Part shown: one piece after another, positions 8,782 through 56,127 of the stretch
Layout: every line of letters begins with the position of its first letter
How positions within the stretch are numbered: position 1 is the stretch's first letter
Source of the DNA: Terriglobia bacterium
Lineage (GTDB): Bacteria > Acidobacteriota > Terriglobia > Terriglobales > Acidobacteriaceae
Length of the DNA stretch: 64,000 bases
Assembly (NCBI GenBank): GCA_021324365.1
Contig: JAJPJE010000060.1
Coordinates: forward strand, 1 to 64,000
Direction of reading: 5' to 3'
Notes under the pieces: generated by a model
Told to the model about the DNA's origin: nothing
Database searches by the model: none
What the model saw: the letters and a program-made list of their open reading frames with translations, nothing else
Translations under genes and position numbers: made by a program

Positions 8782-8797
8782 GTAACGTGTGTGTTAC
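8782..8797. promoter_or_regulatory. Short inverted repeat before sigma-54 activator gene
   Basis: GTAAC (8782-8786) and GTTAC (8793-8797) are perfect arms around GTGTGT in the 201-base spacer upstream of the response regulator. It is a possible operator; no factor is identified. Confidence 0.25.
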
Positions 8798-8857
8798 GCC
8801 AGAATTACGGACCAAGTAACGGGACATCCGGGATCCAGGATTCCCAGGGGGCTCTTA

Positions 8858-10369
8858 ATGCCGTCGCCTAAGACTCGAATACTGATCGTGGACGACGACC
8901 CCAGCATGTCGCGCTTCTTGAGCGGGTATCTCATCCGGCAGAACTTCGACGTCAGCACCGCCGCCAGCGGCGAAGAAGCCATTCGTGTGTTCCGCGTCTA
9001 CGACCCGGCGCTGGTCCTTCTTGATATGGCCATCGGGGGCATGGATGGCCTTGAAACCCTGGAGCGGCTGAAACAGATCAAGCCGGACCTATCAGTGATT
9101 GTTGTATCCGGACAAAACAACCCCGATCTGATCTTCCGGGCCTCCAAACTGGGTGCGGACGACTATGTCGCCAAGCCATTCGAGCCCAAAGATCTGGAAT
9201 TGCGCATCGCTCGTGTGCTTGATAAGCAGCGATTGGTTTCGGAAGTGACGCAATTACGGGAACAGGTCCGGAGGCAAAGCGACTTCAGCATGCTCTTCGG
9301 AACCAGCCCCAAGATGGAAGAAGTAAAGTCGACCATCGAGCAGGTGGCTGACACGAATGCCACCGTGCTGATTCGAGGCGAAAGCGGCACGGGTAAGGAA
9401 GTAGTTGCGCGCATGGTGTACGGCCATTCGCTCCGCCATGAAAAGCCATTCGTGAAGGTCAATTGTGCCGCTATTCCGCACGAGTTACTGGAAAGCGAAC
9501 TATTCGGATACGAGCCGGGAGCATTTACCGGCGCAACCAGGCAGAAACTCGGCAAGTTCGATTTGGCGAACCAGGGAACGCTGTTCCTCGATGAAATCAG
9601 CGAGATGCATCCCGCGCTGCAGGCCAAGCTGCTGCACGTGCTCCAGGATGGTGAATTCGCGCGCCTCGGTGGCAAGCGGGATATTGCCGTCGACGTTCGC
9701 GTGCTTGCGGCCACCAACAAGCCACTAGAGCGTGCGGTGCAGGAAGGACTGTTCCGGGAAGATCTGTTCTACCGCCTGAATGTCGTGACCATACACATCC
9801 CGCCTCTGCGGGAGCGGCGCGAGGAAATCCCCGTATTTCTTGAGTTTTTCCTCCGTAAGTACAGCGAGTTTTACGGTAAGAATCCCCCGCCGTTCAGCGA
9901 CTATGCCGTCGGCCGAATGATGGAGTACAGTTGGCCAGGCAACATCCGGGAACTTGAAAATCTCGTAAAGCGATACGTTATTGTCGGGAAAGAATCGCAG
10001 ATCATCCGCGAACTCTCGACGCATAAACCAATCCTTTCTTCGACCACGGGTGCCAGCCCGCTCTGGGGTTTGAAAACAACTGACGACAGTGTGCGGGGAG
10101 ACGGCGCTGCAGCCGCTGCTTCCTCGAAGAGCATCGTTACCATTCCGCCACCCGAAAACGGCGAGATGGAATTGCCTTCTCTACTCGAAATCGGACGTCG
10201 TGCCGCAATGCAGGCTGAACGGGAGGCCATCGAAAGAGTGCTTACCCAAACCCGTTGGAATCGACGCCAGGCTGCAAAGATTCTGAAGATCAGTTACAAG
10301 GCACTCCTGAATAAACTGAAGATTATCGAGCAGCAGAGTAGCTCACAGAATAAGCAGCAGAGTGCCTAG
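8858..10369 (+). CDS. Sigma-54-dependent response regulator, NtrC family
   Basis: A 503-residue bacterial enhancer-binding protein. Residues about 5-120 are the receiver (VDDDP, phosphoacceptor D56 in LLDMAIGG). The central AAA+ domain (about 145-375) has Walker A GESGTGKE, an intact GAFTGA sigma-54 contact loop and Walker B LFLDEISEM. The C-terminus (about 460-495) is a Fis-type helix-turn-helix (RRQAAKILKISYKALLNKLK). It activates sigma-54 promoters using ATP after phosphorylation. The upstream kinase at 7058 is the likely phosphodonor. The frame opens at 8789, but the ATG at 8858 begins the receiver. The receiver has GG where most have a proline after the D56 loop, a mild oddity. Targets are unknown; the -24/-12 sites in this window are candidates. 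Confidence 0.93.
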   Translation: MPSPKTRILIVDDDPSMSRFLSGYLIRQNFDVSTAASGEEAIRVFRVYDPALVLLDMAIGGMDGLETLERLKQIKPDLSVIVVSGQNNPDLIFRASKLGADDYVAKPFEPKDLELRIARVLDKQRLVSEVTQLREQVRRQSDFSMLFGTSPKMEEVKSTIEQVADTNATVLIRGESGTGKEVVARMVYGHSLRHEKPFVKVNCAAIPHELLESELFGYEPGAFTGATRQKLGKFDLANQGTLFLDEISEMHPALQAKLLHVLQDGEFARLGGKRDIAVDVRVLAATNKPLERAVQEGLFREDLFYRLNVVTIHIPPLRERREEIPVFLEFFLRKYSEFYGKNPPPFSDYAVGRMMEYSWPGNIRELENLVKRYVIVGKESQIIRELSTHKPILSSTTGASPLWGLKTTDDSVRGDGAAAAASSKSIVTIPPPENGEMELPSLLEIGRRAAMQAEREAIERVLTQTRWNRRQAAKILKISYKALLNKLKIIEQQSSSQNKQQSA

Positions 10370-45812: not shown

Positions 45813-46982
45813 GTGAAAGAACCGGAGCAGAAACCGTTGACTAGTATTGCCTCTCCGATTTCGCAGGTAGTTGCAACGGAAACCAAGACGCCGGTCTCGG
45901 CGCGGCATCGTCACGTTCGGCTGAACTGGCAAGCCAAAACCCTGATTCCAGTGGCCGCCGCTTTGCTCAACGGCGTTCTTGTCTTTTTGTTTACCACGCT
46001 GACATTGCATCCGGACGAACGCGAATCCGTTCTGCTGGTGGCCTCCGCTGGAGCGGTGGTGATCTGCGCCATCCTGCTGATCACGCTAACGGTTGTCGTC
46101 CGGCGCCCCATGCTTGAGCTGCAACAGAAGATTCAGCACGTTGCTGATGGAAACCTCGATGTGGAAGTCGGCTTCAGTTCGCGTAATGACGACATCGGCG
46201 ACCTCGGTCGCAATTTCAACTACATGGTCGAGCAACTACGCGAAAGCCGGCAGGAAATCGAGCGGCTGCACCGCACGCAAATGTCGCGAGCCGAACACAT
46301 GGCGACCCTCGGCGAATTGGCCGCCGGCCTGGCACATGAGATTCGCAATCCGCTGGCAGGCATTGCCGGGGTGATGCAGATCGTCTCTCGCGACCTACCT
46401 CCCACCAGCCCCGCACGTGAAGTCGTAAAAGATGTGCAGGAAGAAGTGGTGCGCATCAATCGCATCGTTTCCGACCTTCTGGAAACGGCTAGGCCGCGTA
46501 CTCCAGAGTTTCATCTTGCCGACCTAAACGCTACGGTGGAACACGCGGTCGGATTTGCTCGGCAGCAAGTGCTGTCAAAGCCCATCCAGATCAATTTCAC
46601 CAAGGCTCCTGACCTTGCTCTGGTGGAACATGATCCTCGCCAGCTTCATCAGGTACTACTCAACCTGCTACTAAACGCTATCCAAGCCTTGGAAGGTGCC
46701 GGCAGGGTGGATGTGCTCATCACGCAAACTGGTGAAAACACGGTCTCTGTTGCAATCAACGACACCGGGCCCGGAATCCCTGCTGAAAATCTCAACAACA
46801 TCTTCCGACCTTTCTTCACCACGAAGGGCCACGGTACAGGATTGGGACTACCTCTGGCTCGGCGAATTGTCGAGGACCACGGCGGAAAGCTCGAAGTCAC
46901 CAGTGACCTTGGTCATGGCAGCACCTTTACGTTAGTGCTGCCCTTCCGGCGGCCACGACCGGAAATGACGGCAAACGCGTGA
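45813..46982 (+). CDS. Membrane sensor histidine kinase (HAMP-HisKA, NtrB/AtoS-like)
   Basis: A 389-residue kinase with two helices (LIPVAAALLNGVLVFLFT and VLLVASAGAVVICAILLITL) separated by a short periplasmic stretch, then HAMP (about 100-150), HisKA with the H-box LAHEIRNPLAG (H175) and an ATPase domain with LLNLLLNAIQALE, NDTGPGIPAE and GTGLGLPLARRI. This type pairs with sigma-54 activators; one begins 24 bases downstream. The periplasmic segment is very short, so the sensed cue may be in the membrane or cytoplasm. Start is GTG 45813. Confidence 0.92.
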   Translation: MKEPEQKPLTSIASPISQVVATETKTPVSARHRHVRLNWQAKTLIPVAAALLNGVLVFLFTTLTLHPDERESVLLVASAGAVVICAILLITLTVVVRRPMLELQQKIQHVADGNLDVEVGFSSRNDDIGDLGRNFNYMVEQLRESRQEIERLHRTQMSRAEHMATLGELAAGLAHEIRNPLAGIAGVMQIVSRDLPPTSPAREVVKDVQEEVVRINRIVSDLLETARPRTPEFHLADLNATVEHAVGFARQQVLSKPIQINFTKAPDLALVEHDPRQLHQVLLNLLLNAIQALEGAGRVDVLITQTGENTVSVAINDTGPGIPAENLNNIFRPFFTTKGHGTGLGLPLARRIVEDHGGKLEVTSDLGHGSTFTLVLPFRRPRPEMTANA

Positions 46983-47006: not shown

Positions 47007-48479
47007 ATGCCCCTCGAAAAAGTCTTAGTTGTCGACGACGAAAAGCTCGTTCGGTGGTCGCTGCGACAAAAGTGTCAGGAGTGGGGATATCAGGTCATGG
47101 AGGCCCCCGACGGCACTACTGGCGTAAAAGTTGCACAAGCGGAAATTCCCGACCTGGTACTTCTTGATGTCCGTCTTCCGGACATTGGCGGACTCGAGGT
47201 TCTCCGCAACATTAAAGAGAGCAACTCGGCTCGGGCCGTCATCATGATTACGGCCGACCCGCAACTTGAGGACGTGAAGCAAGCCCTCAAGCTCGGGGCT
47301 TATGATTTCGTCGGCAAGCCTCTCGACTTCGACGAACTTGCCGTTACCGTAAAGAATGCTCTCGAAGCCAACCGGCTCCGCAATGAAGTCGAGACTCTTC
47401 GCGGCGAGGTGCGCCGCCGTACCGGCGTGCACGAGGTTATCGCCGAATCCAAGAAGATGCAGGAAGTAATGTCGTTCGTGAATAAGGTAGCGGCAAGCGA
47501 AGCCAGTACCATCCTTATTCAGGGCGAAAGCGGTACCGGTAAGGATCTGATCGCAAAAGGCATTCACTACGGCAGTTCGCGTCAGGATCGGCCATTTGTC
47601 GCAGTGAACTGTTCCGCGATTCCCGAGACGCTGATGGAAGCCGAACTATTCGGTCACGAGCGCGGCGCCTTCACCGACGCCAAGGCGATGAAAAAAGGTT
47701 TGTTCGAGGTCGCTGACGGGGGAACGCTCTTCCTTGACGAGATCGGCGAACTCTCTCCGCTGCTACAGGCCAAGATGTTGCGCGTCCTCGAAGATCAGGT
47801 AATCCGCCGTGTCGGTGGCGTTCGCGACATGCAGGTCAATGTACGCGTAATCGCCGCATCGAATCGCGACTTGGAGAAGATGGTTCAGGAAGGGACCTTC
47901 CGGCAGGACTTGTTTTATCGTCTGGCCATCATCTCGATTTTCCTGCCTCCGCTGCGCGAGCGCCGCGAAGATATTTTGCCGATGGTCGACTTCTTCATCG
48001 AGCGCTACAACAAGAAGTTTCGCAAGAGCGTTCGCGGTATCACGGAAGAGACGCGCAGGCTGCTGCTTGCTCACAACTGGCCGGGCAATGTCCGCGAACT
48101 GAAGAACGCCATCGAGCGCGCCATGATCCTCGAAGAAGAACAGTTCCTGCGCCCCACCTACATGCCGTTCGCCGTCGGGCATCAGAATGCTGGTCTGACT
48201 GCGTTCCAGAAAATCTCTGGTCCCTCCGATGGGCACGCCTTGCCGAATGGTCGCTCACTTCCGCCGCTCGTTATCCCCGAGGGCGGAACTTCGCTTGAAG
48301 AAGTTGAACGCGCCTTAGTGGAAATGGCGATGCGGCAGGCAAATAGCAATCAGACACACGCCGCGAAGCTGCTCGACATCAGTCGCGACGCCCTACGCTA
48401 CAAACTGAAGAAGTTCGGCCTGATGCGCGCCGAAGACGAATCGGCGGATGAGGCCAGCGAGGCGCAGAGAGCGGGATAG
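47007..48479 (+). CDS. Sigma-54-dependent response regulator with GAFTDA loop
   Basis: A 490-residue NtrC-family activator. Receiver about 5-120 (VVDDEK, D54 in LLDVRLPD, Lys in VGKPLD); AAA+ about 145-375 (Walker A GESGTGKD, Walker B LFLDEIGEL, RELKNAIERAM); C-terminal Fis-type HTH (HAAKLLDISRDALRYKLKKF). The sigma-54 contact loop, residues 220-225, reads GAFTDA rather than GAFTGA; the second Gly is Asp224. Substitutions at this position in NorR give altered, partly constitutive activators (from memory). Cognate kinase is directly upstream. Confidence 0.93.
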   Translation: MPLEKVLVVDDEKLVRWSLRQKCQEWGYQVMEAPDGTTGVKVAQAEIPDLVLLDVRLPDIGGLEVLRNIKESNSARAVIMITADPQLEDVKQALKLGAYDFVGKPLDFDELAVTVKNALEANRLRNEVETLRGEVRRRTGVHEVIAESKKMQEVMSFVNKVAASEASTILIQGESGTGKDLIAKGIHYGSSRQDRPFVAVNCSAIPETLMEAELFGHERGAFTDAKAMKKGLFEVADGGTLFLDEIGELSPLLQAKMLRVLEDQVIRRVGGVRDMQVNVRVIAASNRDLEKMVQEGTFRQDLFYRLAIISIFLPPLRERREDILPMVDFFIERYNKKFRKSVRGITEETRRLLLAHNWPGNVRELKNAIERAMILEEEQFLRPTYMPFAVGHQNAGLTAFQKISGPSDGHALPNGRSLPPLVIPEGGTSLEEVERALVEMAMRQANSNQTHAAKLLDISRDALRYKLKKFGLMRAEDESADEASEAQRAG

Positions 48480-52336: not shown

Positions 52337-53161
52337 TTATTTCGGTAATTCGAGCTTCTGACGCGAGTCGGCTGTCGTGTTTGCACTCGCATCGTTGCTG
52401 TTGTTCCGTGAACCTGCCGCCAGCTCCGATTGACGGTACTTCGGCTCGCTCACATAACCGTGCACGTGGTTCTTCGAAACCTTATTGATCACCAGTTCCA
52501 CTGGACGGCCGCCATCGGCAGCATAGAACACCACAGGCTGTAGCAGATTCACGTGTTTCTGCGACAGCTTTGCGTCGTCCACCATCAGTTCGAGATCGGC
52601 AAACTGGTTCTTCGTGTTCGCCTTCTTCAGACGGATTCCGACTGGGCCCTGTTGCGAGAATTGCTTCGACTTGTCCAGATCGAACTCATAGTACTTGCGC
52701 TCGCCCTTGCGCTCCAGGGCAACCAGTTCCTCGTGCGTTGAAGCGATGGAGCCAGACAATTCGGTGCGCGTTCCGGCAAGGTCCTGCCGGGTCTGATCGA
52801 TCGCCTTCTGCTGCTCATCAAGCTTCGACTGAAATTGCTTCCAGCGTGGATCGTCGCGGCGCACCGCCGCATGCGCCTTGTGATGAATGGCGTTGTTGCT
52901 GGCTGAATGCGCGGCCGACTGCTTCTGTGCTTCAGCAGCCTGTTGTTGAGCCTGCGCTTCGCTCAATTGATTCAGGCGCAAGTTCAGCGCGTCCATCTGG
53001 TTGCGGGTTTGGTCAAGTGCGGTAGAAATCTGCGCGTTTTGGGCCGTAAGTTGCTTCGATACCCCGCGCTCGTGCCAGCCGTAACCGAGGGCGGCAATAA
53101 CCAGGAGTAACGACGCAATAATGCCCAAATGAGAGGGCCGAACAGGAAGTTCGTGAGACAT
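52337..53161 (-). CDS. Membrane-anchored coiled-coil protein
   Basis: A 274-residue protein: one N-terminal helix (LGIIASLLLVIAALGYGW), a long Gln/Ala-rich coiled-coil (about 30-140, with AQAQQQAAEAQKQSAAH) and a C-terminal beta-rich domain (about 140-250: YYEFDLDKSKQFSQQGPVGI, LQPVVFYAADGGRPVELVIN). It may be a periplasmic scaffold. I do not recognise a family. ATG 53161 is chosen since it opens just before the helix; the longer frame to 53209 overlaps the spacer. Confidence 0.75.
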   Translation of the reverse strand: MSHELPVRPSHLGIIASLLLVIAALGYGWHERGVSKQLTAQNAQISTALDQTRNQMDALNLRLNQLSEAQAQQQAAEAQKQSAAHSASNNAIHHKAHAAVRRDDPRWKQFQSKLDEQQKAIDQTRQDLAGTRTELSGSIASTHEELVALERKGERKYYEFDLDKSKQFSQQGPVGIRLKKANTKNQFADLELMVDDAKLSQKHVNLLQPVVFYAADGGRPVELVINKVSKNHVHGYVSEPKYRQSELAAGSRNNSNDASANTTADSRQKLELPK

Positions 53162-53198
53162 GTTCCACTCCAGGGAGACTGCTTTCTGGCATGAAGAA

Positions 53199-53213
53199 TG
53201 GCACGTCAATTGC
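53199..53213 (+). promoter_or_regulatory. Perfect sigma-54 (-24/-12) promoter
   Basis: TGGCACGTCAATTGC matches TGGCACG-N4-TTGC at all eleven consensus positions with correct spacing. It points rightwards; the expected start is near 53225, about 150 bases before the GH5-like gene. Chance occurrence in a window this size is roughly 3%. Confidence 0.75.
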
Positions 53214-53374
53214 CAGAGTCGCCGCTTTGTAAGCTGCTGATTTCCCTACGTAAGTACCCGAGTACAATCCAGCTTGCCTGGTAGGGCTTTCCAGCACATG
53301 GGAAGAAATTACGATGTGCTGGAGGTACCTGATAATCTCGTTCTGATCAACTCTCGCGCGAGTTCGATATCTTG

Positions 53375-54511
53375 ATGAAGCTGAGTTCGAAGGTCACCCT
53401 GGTTTGCGCTGTCGTTGTGATCGCCGCGAGTCCTCTGCTCGCACGCACCCGTTGGACGTTGGAACAAGCCGGCACCTGGTATCAGCAACAACCGTGGTTG
53501 GTGGGCAGCGACTTTATTCCCGACGATGCCATAAACCAGCTGGAAATGTGGCAGGCCAATACTTTCGATCCGAAGGAAATCGACCGCGAACTCGGTTGGG
53601 CCGAATCCCTCGGCATGACCACCATGCGCGTCTTTCTCCACGACTTGCTCTGGGAGCAGGACGCAACCGGTTTCAAACAGCGACTGGATCAGTTTCTCGC
53701 AATTTGTCAGCGGCATCATATACGCCCACTCCTGGTTCTATTCGATTCGTGTTGGGATCCGGATCCGAAGCTTGGCCGGCAGCATGCGCCGATTCCCGGT
53801 GTTCACAACTCCGGATGGGTGCAGAGCCCCGGCAATAACGCTCTCAAGGATGCAAAGCAATATCCGCGGCTGAAGGCGTATGTTGTCGGCGTTATCGGCG
53901 CGTTTGCGAAGGATACGCGTGTTCTCGGATGGGATCTTTGGAACGAACCGGACAACGACGGCGGAGGTTCCTATCAACATCTGGCCAACAAAGAAGAACT
54001 GGTTGCGGCTTTGCTCCCGCAGGTCTTCGAATGGGCGAGGTCCGTAAATCCTTCTCAGCCACTCACCAGTGGCGTTTGGGCAGGCTCAGCCGAGGAGTGG
54101 AGCGATCCGGGAAAGTGGGCTCCGATTCAGCGCACACAATTGCAGGAGTCGGACGTCATTTCGTTTCACAATTACGGTTGGCCTGAAGATTTCGAAGCGC
54201 ACGTAATCGCTCTCGAACGCTTGCACCGGCCGATCCTGTGTACGGAGTACATGGCGCGTTCCGTCGGCAGCACCTTCGACACCGTTCTTCCCGTGGCAAT
54301 GAAGTATCACGTCGCGGCCATCAATTGGGGCTTCGTTGCGGGTAAAACGCAGACGTATCTCCCATGGGAATCATGGCAACACCCGTATGTAAAAACTCAG
54401 CCACCAATCTGGTTTCACGACATCTTTAGAAAAGACGGGACTCCCTACCGTGAGCGCGAGATTCAGCTTATTCGCGCGCTGATCGGCAATTCAAAAGAAA
54501 TATCAAAATGA
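53375..54511 (+). CDS. Secreted GH5-like glycoside hydrolase
   Basis: A 378-residue exported protein with a signal peptide (VTLVCAVVVIAASPLLA). The TIM-barrel core has DLWNEPDN near residue 190 (acid/base Glu after Asn, clan GH-A) and a second conserved Glu in ILCTEYMAR (expected nucleophile), with HNYGWP before it. Closest in style to family 5 cellulases/mannanases; the polysaccharide is unknown. The start is ATG 53375; a TTG three bases upstream is less likely. Nine bases separate it from trmO, so the pair should share the sigma-54-type promoter at 53199. Confidence 0.85.
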   Translation: MKLSSKVTLVCAVVVIAASPLLARTRWTLEQAGTWYQQQPWLVGSDFIPDDAINQLEMWQANTFDPKEIDRELGWAESLGMTTMRVFLHDLLWEQDATGFKQRLDQFLAICQRHHIRPLLVLFDSCWDPDPKLGRQHAPIPGVHNSGWVQSPGNNALKDAKQYPRLKAYVVGVIGAFAKDTRVLGWDLWNEPDNDGGGSYQHLANKEELVAALLPQVFEWARSVNPSQPLTSGVWAGSAEEWSDPGKWAPIQRTQLQESDVISFHNYGWPEDFEAHVIALERLHRPILCTEYMARSVGSTFDTVLPVAMKYHVAAINWGFVAGKTQTYLPWESWQHPYVKTQPPIWFHDIFRKDGTPYREREIQLIRALIGNSKEISK

Positions 54512-54520
54512 GGTTTTCGA

Positions 54521-54970
54521 ATGTTCTCGATGCGGCCAATTGGGTTTATCAGCAGTCCCTATAAGGATGGCCAGAAGATTCCGAAGGGCCTTGGTGTAAA
54601 GCACGATGCCGAAGGCGTGTTGGAGATTTTGCCGGAGTTCGAACAGGGGCTATTGGATATCGAAGGGTTTTCACACCTCTTCGTCTTATGGGCGTTCGAT
54701 CGCTCGAAGGAATCTCTCCTTGTCGTAACTCCGCCCAGCGATAACCGGCCTCATGGAGTGTTTGCGACGCGCGCACCAGTGCGGCCCAATCCGATTGCCT
54801 TGACTGTCGTTCGATTGCTTCGCCGTGAAGGTCCGAAACTTCATGTGCGCGGAATCGATATGCTCGACCACACGCCGATTCTTGATATCAAACCGTATCT
54901 CTCTAGCGTTCCCGAGGATCAGTTGAAGCGAGGCTGGCTCGCCGAAGCCGAAGCTCGTGCTCAGAAATAG
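54521..54970 (+). CDS. trmO: tRNA (N6-threonylcarbamoyladenosine)-methyltransferase TrmO/TsaA
   Basis: A 149-residue TsaA-like protein with IGFISSPYKD at the N-terminus and the SAM-binding signature GVFATRAPVRPNPIALT. E. coli TrmO methylates t6A37 in tRNA-Thr; it has an extra C-terminal domain that is absent here, so this is a minimal form and the substrate is uncertain. It is nine bases downstream of the GH5-like gene. Confidence 0.88.
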   Translation: MFSMRPIGFISSPYKDGQKIPKGLGVKHDAEGVLEILPEFEQGLLDIEGFSHLFVLWAFDRSKESLLVVTPPSDNRPHGVFATRAPVRPNPIALTVVRLLRREGPKLHVRGIDMLDHTPILDIKPYLSSVPEDQLKRGWLAEAEARAQK

Positions 54971-55642: not shown

Positions 55643-56127
55643 ATGCGAATCGCTGTAGGCTCGCTTTGTCTGCTGCTTGTTTGTTCAACCCTCAAATCGC
55701 AAACTACGCCCAGCACGTAGTGGGTGTGAATTTCGGCGCCGGCTTTCTGAACGCGCAGGACGCGGAGGAAATCAAGAAAGCGGTTGCGAGTTCAACCGCG
55801 GACGTGAATCTTACAGGCGCGGCGCTCGATGAATATGCCGCCAAGGACCACGAAAATGATGGATCGGCGCATCCGCAAGTGGGCCATGCCACGGTTGACG
55901 ATGCGGCAGCCTGCATCGATCACATCGTGAAAGTAACAGGCATCGATCATGTCGGCATTGGCAGCGACTTCGATGGAATCGGAACTGTGCCTCGAGGTCT
56001 GGAAGATGTCTCCAGGATGCCGAACCTCACAGCGGCCTTATTGAGACTCGGCTACAGCGAGGCCGACATCCAGAAGATGATGGGCGGGAACTACCTGCGA
56101 GTGATTCGCGAAGTGGTCGGCCAGTAA
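55643..56127 (+). pseudogene. Membrane dipeptidase (M19), internally deleted remnant
   Basis: ATG 55643 opens a signal peptide (MRIAVGSLCLLLVCSTLKSQ) that stops in frame about 25 codons later. In the next frame, from about 55715, coding resumes as the C-terminal third of an M19 dipeptidase: VVGVNFGAGFLNAQDAEEI, then IDHVGIGSDFDGIG with the metal-site Asp, and the ending PNLTAALLRLGYSEADIQKM. About 200-250 residues of the middle, with most metal ligands, are gone. The remnant is an in-place deletion with frameshift and is almost certainly inactive. Confidence 0.75.

Follow-up and report, generated by a model that had tools for sequence, protein, structure and literature searches.

Which gene does a sigma-54 promoter serve when its sequence can be read on both strands? 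This question is raised by a short element in the 64,000-nucleotide stretch of acidobacterial DNA analyzed here (the window). A pattern search found TGGCACGTCAATTGC at 53199-53213 on the plus strand, which matches the sigma-54 consensus TGGCACG-N4-TTGC at 11 of 11 fixed positions; neither strand of the window has another exact match. It lies in a 213-bp intergenic gap that runs from the ATG at 53161 of a minus-strand gene to the ATG at 53375 of a plus-strand gene. An earlier note, which had described the match and its intergenic placement correctly, read it as a promoter directed at the plus-strand genes, a GH5-like hydrolase and trmO, and suggested sigma-54 control of polysaccharide breakdown. 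Comparison with relatives points in the opposite direction. With a probability of roughly 0.88, judged from comparative sequence evidence, the gene served by this sigma-54 promoter is the divergent one at 52337-53161 on the minus strand.

The exact match by itself is of little weight, because the 4.44-Mb genome holds one such match against about 2.8 expected from base composition, and a reversed control pattern gives two; exact consensus matches are thus not enriched. When up to one mismatch is allowed, 128 consensus matches are found genome-wide, compared with 94 for the reversed control. The original estimate of 0.03 sites per window is about right in view of base composition (0.04) and somewhat low in view of dinucleotide-preserving shuffles, where the mean is 0.11 exact matches per window and 10 of 100 shuffled windows hold at least one.

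The symmetry of the site is central to its interpretation. The 17 bases at 53199-53215, TGGCACGTCAATTGCCA, form a near-palindrome with mirror arms TGGCA and TGCCA, of which the full-consensus match is a by-product. Since the site is near-palindromic (TGGCA-N7-TGCCA), the minus strand too reads as a sigma-54 core of the form GG-N10-GC. This minus-strand -24/-12 core, TGGCAATTGACGTGC, occupies 53201-53215 (read from 53215 to 53201), with its GG at 53214-53213 and its GC at 53202-53201, and it faces the gene at 52337-53161 from 54 bp before the ATG at 53161. The earlier note had read the plus strand alone; the match it reported there holds, and the minus-strand GG-N10-GC of the same palindrome was overlooked.

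Conservation among relatives of the divergent gene provides the evidence for direction. Of the 298 genomes of the order, 275 contain a match to the protein of 52337-53161, and among the matches listed, relatives with 45-60% identity occur in 43 other genomes while the remaining ones show about 30% identity. The close group consisted of 42 usable upstream regions, namely the window and 41 relatives with 45-60% identity; L145, with an upstream region of only 58 bp, and L274, whose start was not found, were left out. All relatives compared belong to genera other than that of the window genome, and relatives within one genus are not independent. The core TGG-N9-TGC, facing the gene and within 95 bp of the called start, is present in 39 of these 42 regions (38 of the 41 relatives and the window), compared with a mean of 1.05 and a maximum of 5 in 1000 shuffles of the same 42 upstream stretches. 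The core-to-start distance in the relatives is 40-85 bp, a range that includes the 54 bp of the window. Three regions lack the core. In two of them, L269 and L275, inspection by eye shows such a site ahead of an in-frame ATG further upstream; in the third, L272, no TGG-N9-TGC site was seen. Furthermore, a looser GG-N10-GC search on 29 upstream regions recovered identical sites, and at two positions left free by the search rule, most of the 38 relatives with the core have A (32 at position 5, 28 at position 10). In the group with about 30% identity, in which starts are less surely called, the 150 bp before the start contain TGG-N9-TGC in 1 of 21 cases and TGG-N10-GC in 4 of 21. A predicted sigma-54 promoter at this place, oriented towards the minus strand and serving the divergent gene, is well supported by these comparisons. 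Of the original promoter claim, the existence of a promoter at this place is well supported by the 38 of 41 relatives, and its direction and the gene it was said to serve are not.

The relatives also explain how a perfect match can appear on the plus strand. The plain consensus score favors that strand (11 of 11 versus 8 of 11 for the minus strand), whereas a matrix derived from the 38 relatives gives 14.6 bits to the minus reading and 11.8 to the plus reading, the relatives themselves spanning 11.4-21.7 bits; this score leans towards the minus strand because the matrix was built on the divergent gene's own promoters. The -12 side of the family promoters often ends in CGTGC, the complement of which is GCACG. 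The plus strand of the window reads TGGCACG-N4-TTGC because TGGCAA at -24 and CGTGC followed by CA at -12 are near mirror images. Directly after the -12 GC, 2 of 39 promoters, including that of the window, have C and the others have T or A, which makes the window promoter atypical. The dinucleotide CA at this position is found in the window alone, so the perfect plus-strand match is a local accident of the window copy.

Could the palindrome nevertheless work in both directions? A 17-bp palindromic sigma-54 element could load RpoN polymerase either way and fire both ways, in which case the GH5-like gene, newly landed beside it, would have been captured into the regulon by recent gain and the activator sites would serve both genes. 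Such an arrangement is suggested by the GG-N10-GC spacing that both strands of these 17 bp show, each orientation matching a sigma-54 core, and it finds a parallel in PMC7657599, which describes motifs for RpoN binding on the sense as well as the antisense strand and has a table with a similarly palindromic site. We consider it unlikely, as the plus-orientation core in the 95 bp before the start is confined to the window itself (1 of the 42 regions, 0 of the 41 relatives); in addition, the site would presumably accommodate one polymerase at a time.

A promoter that faces the GH5-like gene and trmO, with a start near 53225, is very improbable. The 11 of 11 consensus positions on the plus strand, the intergenic placement, and the genes that follow in that direction speak for it. 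Against it stand the plus core confined to the window copy, a leader that would be about 150 nt long, and the upstream regions and surroundings of GH5-like relatives. The GH5-like (cellulase family) hydrolase, encoded at 53375-54511 on the plus strand, has a probable signal peptide by eye and a partial match to PF00150 that barely exceeds the cut-off (23.6 bits versus 23.5, E 4.2e-05); trmO follows at 54521-54970 on the plus strand (PF01980, E 8.2e-36). Of 200 genomes of the family, 87 have relatives of the GH5-like gene, and 80 loci were taken from named contigs. For the upstream comparison, 94 distinct regions were kept of 109 loci, with 14 duplicates and one locus without a callable start removed. 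Within 300 bp, TGG-N9-TGC directed towards the GH5-like gene occurs in 5 of 94 regions, showing no excess over shuffles (mean 7.0, range 1-16), and within 95 bp it occurs in 1 of 94 (shuffle mean 2.0). The best consensus scores in this direction are likewise shuffle-like, with three regions at 9 of 11 and none above, compared with 3.25 at 9 and 0.3 at 10 in shuffles. An exact full-consensus match on the reverse strand at L097 was rejected as chance; by eye, it lies in what looks like the end of an upstream gene.

Gene surroundings give the same picture. Neither trmO nor the divergent gene was found near the GH5-like gene in any of the 80 loci (0 of 80 each), 49 of which are at least 11 kb long, while the GH5-like gene itself was recovered in 80 of 80 as a control. 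Similarly, the GH5-like gene and trmO were found in 0 of 20 neighborhoods of the divergent gene, a gene that tblastn detected in 20 of 20. Relatives that still carry the GH5-like gene, all with other surroundings and from other genera, were checked for the GG/GC positions, and loss of these positions was found. The GH5-like gene is thus not the conserved target of the site, and the proposed sigma-54 control of polysaccharide breakdown is not supported by either the 94 GH5-like upstream regions or the 42 members of the promoter family. That the consensus match arose by chance, with no sigma-54 promoter here in either direction, would fit the genome-wide and shuffled-window counts given above, and is the least credible reading given that 38 of the 41 relatives share the placement and core ahead of the divergent gene.

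Two further features of the GH5-like side were observed. Strong palindromes, for example ACGGTAGCGCTACCGC, lie a short way upstream of some GH5-like relatives such as L004, and a palindrome matching at 14 of 16 positions occurs in the last 120 bp before the gene in 13 of 94 regions (shuffles mean 3.6, maximum 7), which hints at control by a LacI-type or similar repressor. Further downstream, 55666-56127 on the plus strand encodes a 153-aa fragment of an M19 membrane dipeptidase covering profile positions 229-319 of 319, perhaps a decayed gene.

If the site is the promoter of the divergent gene, where might its activator bind? An EM motif search over 39 promoters (best of 60 starts) yielded GAAATTCTTGCC, in effect the 11-base palindrome GNAANNNTTNC; its usual distance ahead of the TGG is about 98 or about 77 bp. 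Pairs of GNAANNNTTNC spaced 20-22 bp apart and scoring at least 10 of 12 are present in 25 of 39 promoters, compared with a mean of 0.07 and a maximum of 1 in 200 shuffles, a test that is partly circular because the motif was found and scored in the same 39 sequences. Broken down by spacing, the number of promoters with such a pair is 22 of 39 for 20 bp, 10 for 21 bp, and 2 for 22 bp, and none has one at 23-25 bp; for shorter spacings it is 17 (18-19 bp), 9 (15-17 bp), and 6 (12-14 bp). In the window, the first probable activator site, GTAATTTCTTC, is located at 53302-53312 on the minus strand, starting 97 bp upstream of the promoter TGG, with a pair score of 10 of 12, and the second, a weak degenerate copy with the sequence GAAAGCCCTAC, is located at 53281-53291 on the same strand. 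The two sites are 21 bp apart and would therefore lie on the same helix face. The GNAANNNTTNC pair about 20 bp apart and about 75-98 bp upstream of the promoter is probably an enhancer-binding-protein site in many relatives.

Closer in, 20 of 39 promoters carry an ACTTAC box, with at most one mismatch, whose end lies 12-15 bp ahead of the TGG; in shuffles the mean is 0.9 and the maximum 4. Its form in the window is GCTTAC at 53229-53234 on the minus strand, ending 13 bp before the TGG, and the box is perhaps a further activator half-site. In addition, an inverted repeat, TCCAGCACAT / ATGTGCTGGA at 53290-53323, flanks activator site 1 and may be involved in regulation of the GH5-like gene or form a leader hairpin.

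With the divergent gene as its target, the promoter would work in the way usual for its class. RpoN-RNA polymerase would bind TGGCAATTGACGTGC on the minus strand and wait there as a closed complex. From GTAATTTCTTC and the weaker GAAAGCCCTAC, some 75-98 bp further upstream, an AAA+ enhancer-binding protein bound there would then loop over to the polymerase and open the complex through ATP hydrolysis. Transcription would start near 53189, if the start follows the -12 GC at the customary distance, which would give a leader of about 28 nt; a GGAG ribosome site is present at 53171-53168, ahead of the ATG at 53161.

Components of such a system are encoded in the genome. An rpoN gene is present (E 5.9e-60), as it is in 288 of the 298 genomes of the order and, among the matches listed, in 42 of the 43 further genomes that carry the divergent gene, the exception being G112, an 87% complete genome; with 288 of 298 genomes carrying it, the presence of rpoN is non-discriminating. 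The sigma-54 activator domain gives 25 matches in the genome, 18 of them strong (about 18 full domains). Two activators in the window had been noted before, and both are confirmed as receiver-AAA+-Fis proteins on the plus strand: one at 8789-10369 and a nearer one at 47007-48479, preceded by a histidine kinase gene at 45813-46982. With the best five candidates per genome scored, 66 of 298 genomes contain a match to the nearer activator with an E value of 1e-120 or lower. As the regulator of the divergent gene it was rejected, since by eye, among the matches listed and again with the best five candidates per genome, it accompanies the gene in 9 of 43 gene-bearing genomes, which is the chance level (65 of 297).

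What does the conserved target encode? The gene at 52337-53161 on the minus strand specifies a predicted protein of 274 aa that combines an N-terminal hydrophobic helix and a coiled coil with a conserved C-terminal part. Searches of Pfam, NCBIfam, and PDB gave no known family or solved relative, only weak and scattered matches of coiled-coil type. A single-sequence AlphaFold2 model was poor (mean pLDDT 59.9, pTM 0.25), and helices were assigned from this poor model. The product is predicted to be a small membrane-anchored coiled-coil protein, perhaps with a role in the cell envelope. The same genome contains a second relative, 30% identical, at L192 (G000:C57:2286-2945), the upstream region of which has no TGG-N10-GC.

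Neighborhoods were compared across 21 loci, of which one is the window and the other 20 are stretches of 14-19 kb; family clustering covered 20 of the 21, the gene copy of L214 being masked by a longer overlapping frame. Two families are common to at least three of the 21 neighborhoods: the divergent gene itself and a loosely related activator family found in the window, L218, and L230, where the L218 and L230 members are only 34-35% identical to that of the window, the activator at 47007-48479. Seventeen more families are common to two loci, and 14 of these reflect same-genus pairs (L218 with L230, L228 with L231). As only the gene and one loose activator family are common to three or more neighborhoods, the promoter travels with the gene and not with a gene block.

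Compared with known systems, the arrangement resembles the sigma-54 promoters of NtrC targets in having a GG-N10-GC core close before the gene, rpoN and NtrC-type activators in the genome, and a pair of probable sites that lie about 100-125 bp ahead of the expected start. The NtrC box given in PMC8743547, TGCACCAnnnTGGTGCA, is different from the site motif GNAANNNTTNC. The gene also differs from NtrC targets, being an orphan that encodes a predicted membrane coiled-coil protein and not a known nitrogen gene. In sigma-70-type palindromic two-way promoters, one symmetrical element is readable on both strands. The present site is likewise symmetrical and readable on both strands, but it is made of sigma-54 elements and its second direction is unconserved. 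The promoter mechanism is ordinary, and what is uncharacterized is the target gene and the activator site. The literature searched, which took in only a minority of subscription papers, yielded no work on a sigma-54 regulon in Acidobacteria.

For this acidobacterial family, the result provides a concrete conserved sigma-54 target, and it ties an uncharacterized protein family to an activator that is traceable by its site. It is also a clear case in which a perfect consensus match may point the wrong way, and conservation decides the direction.
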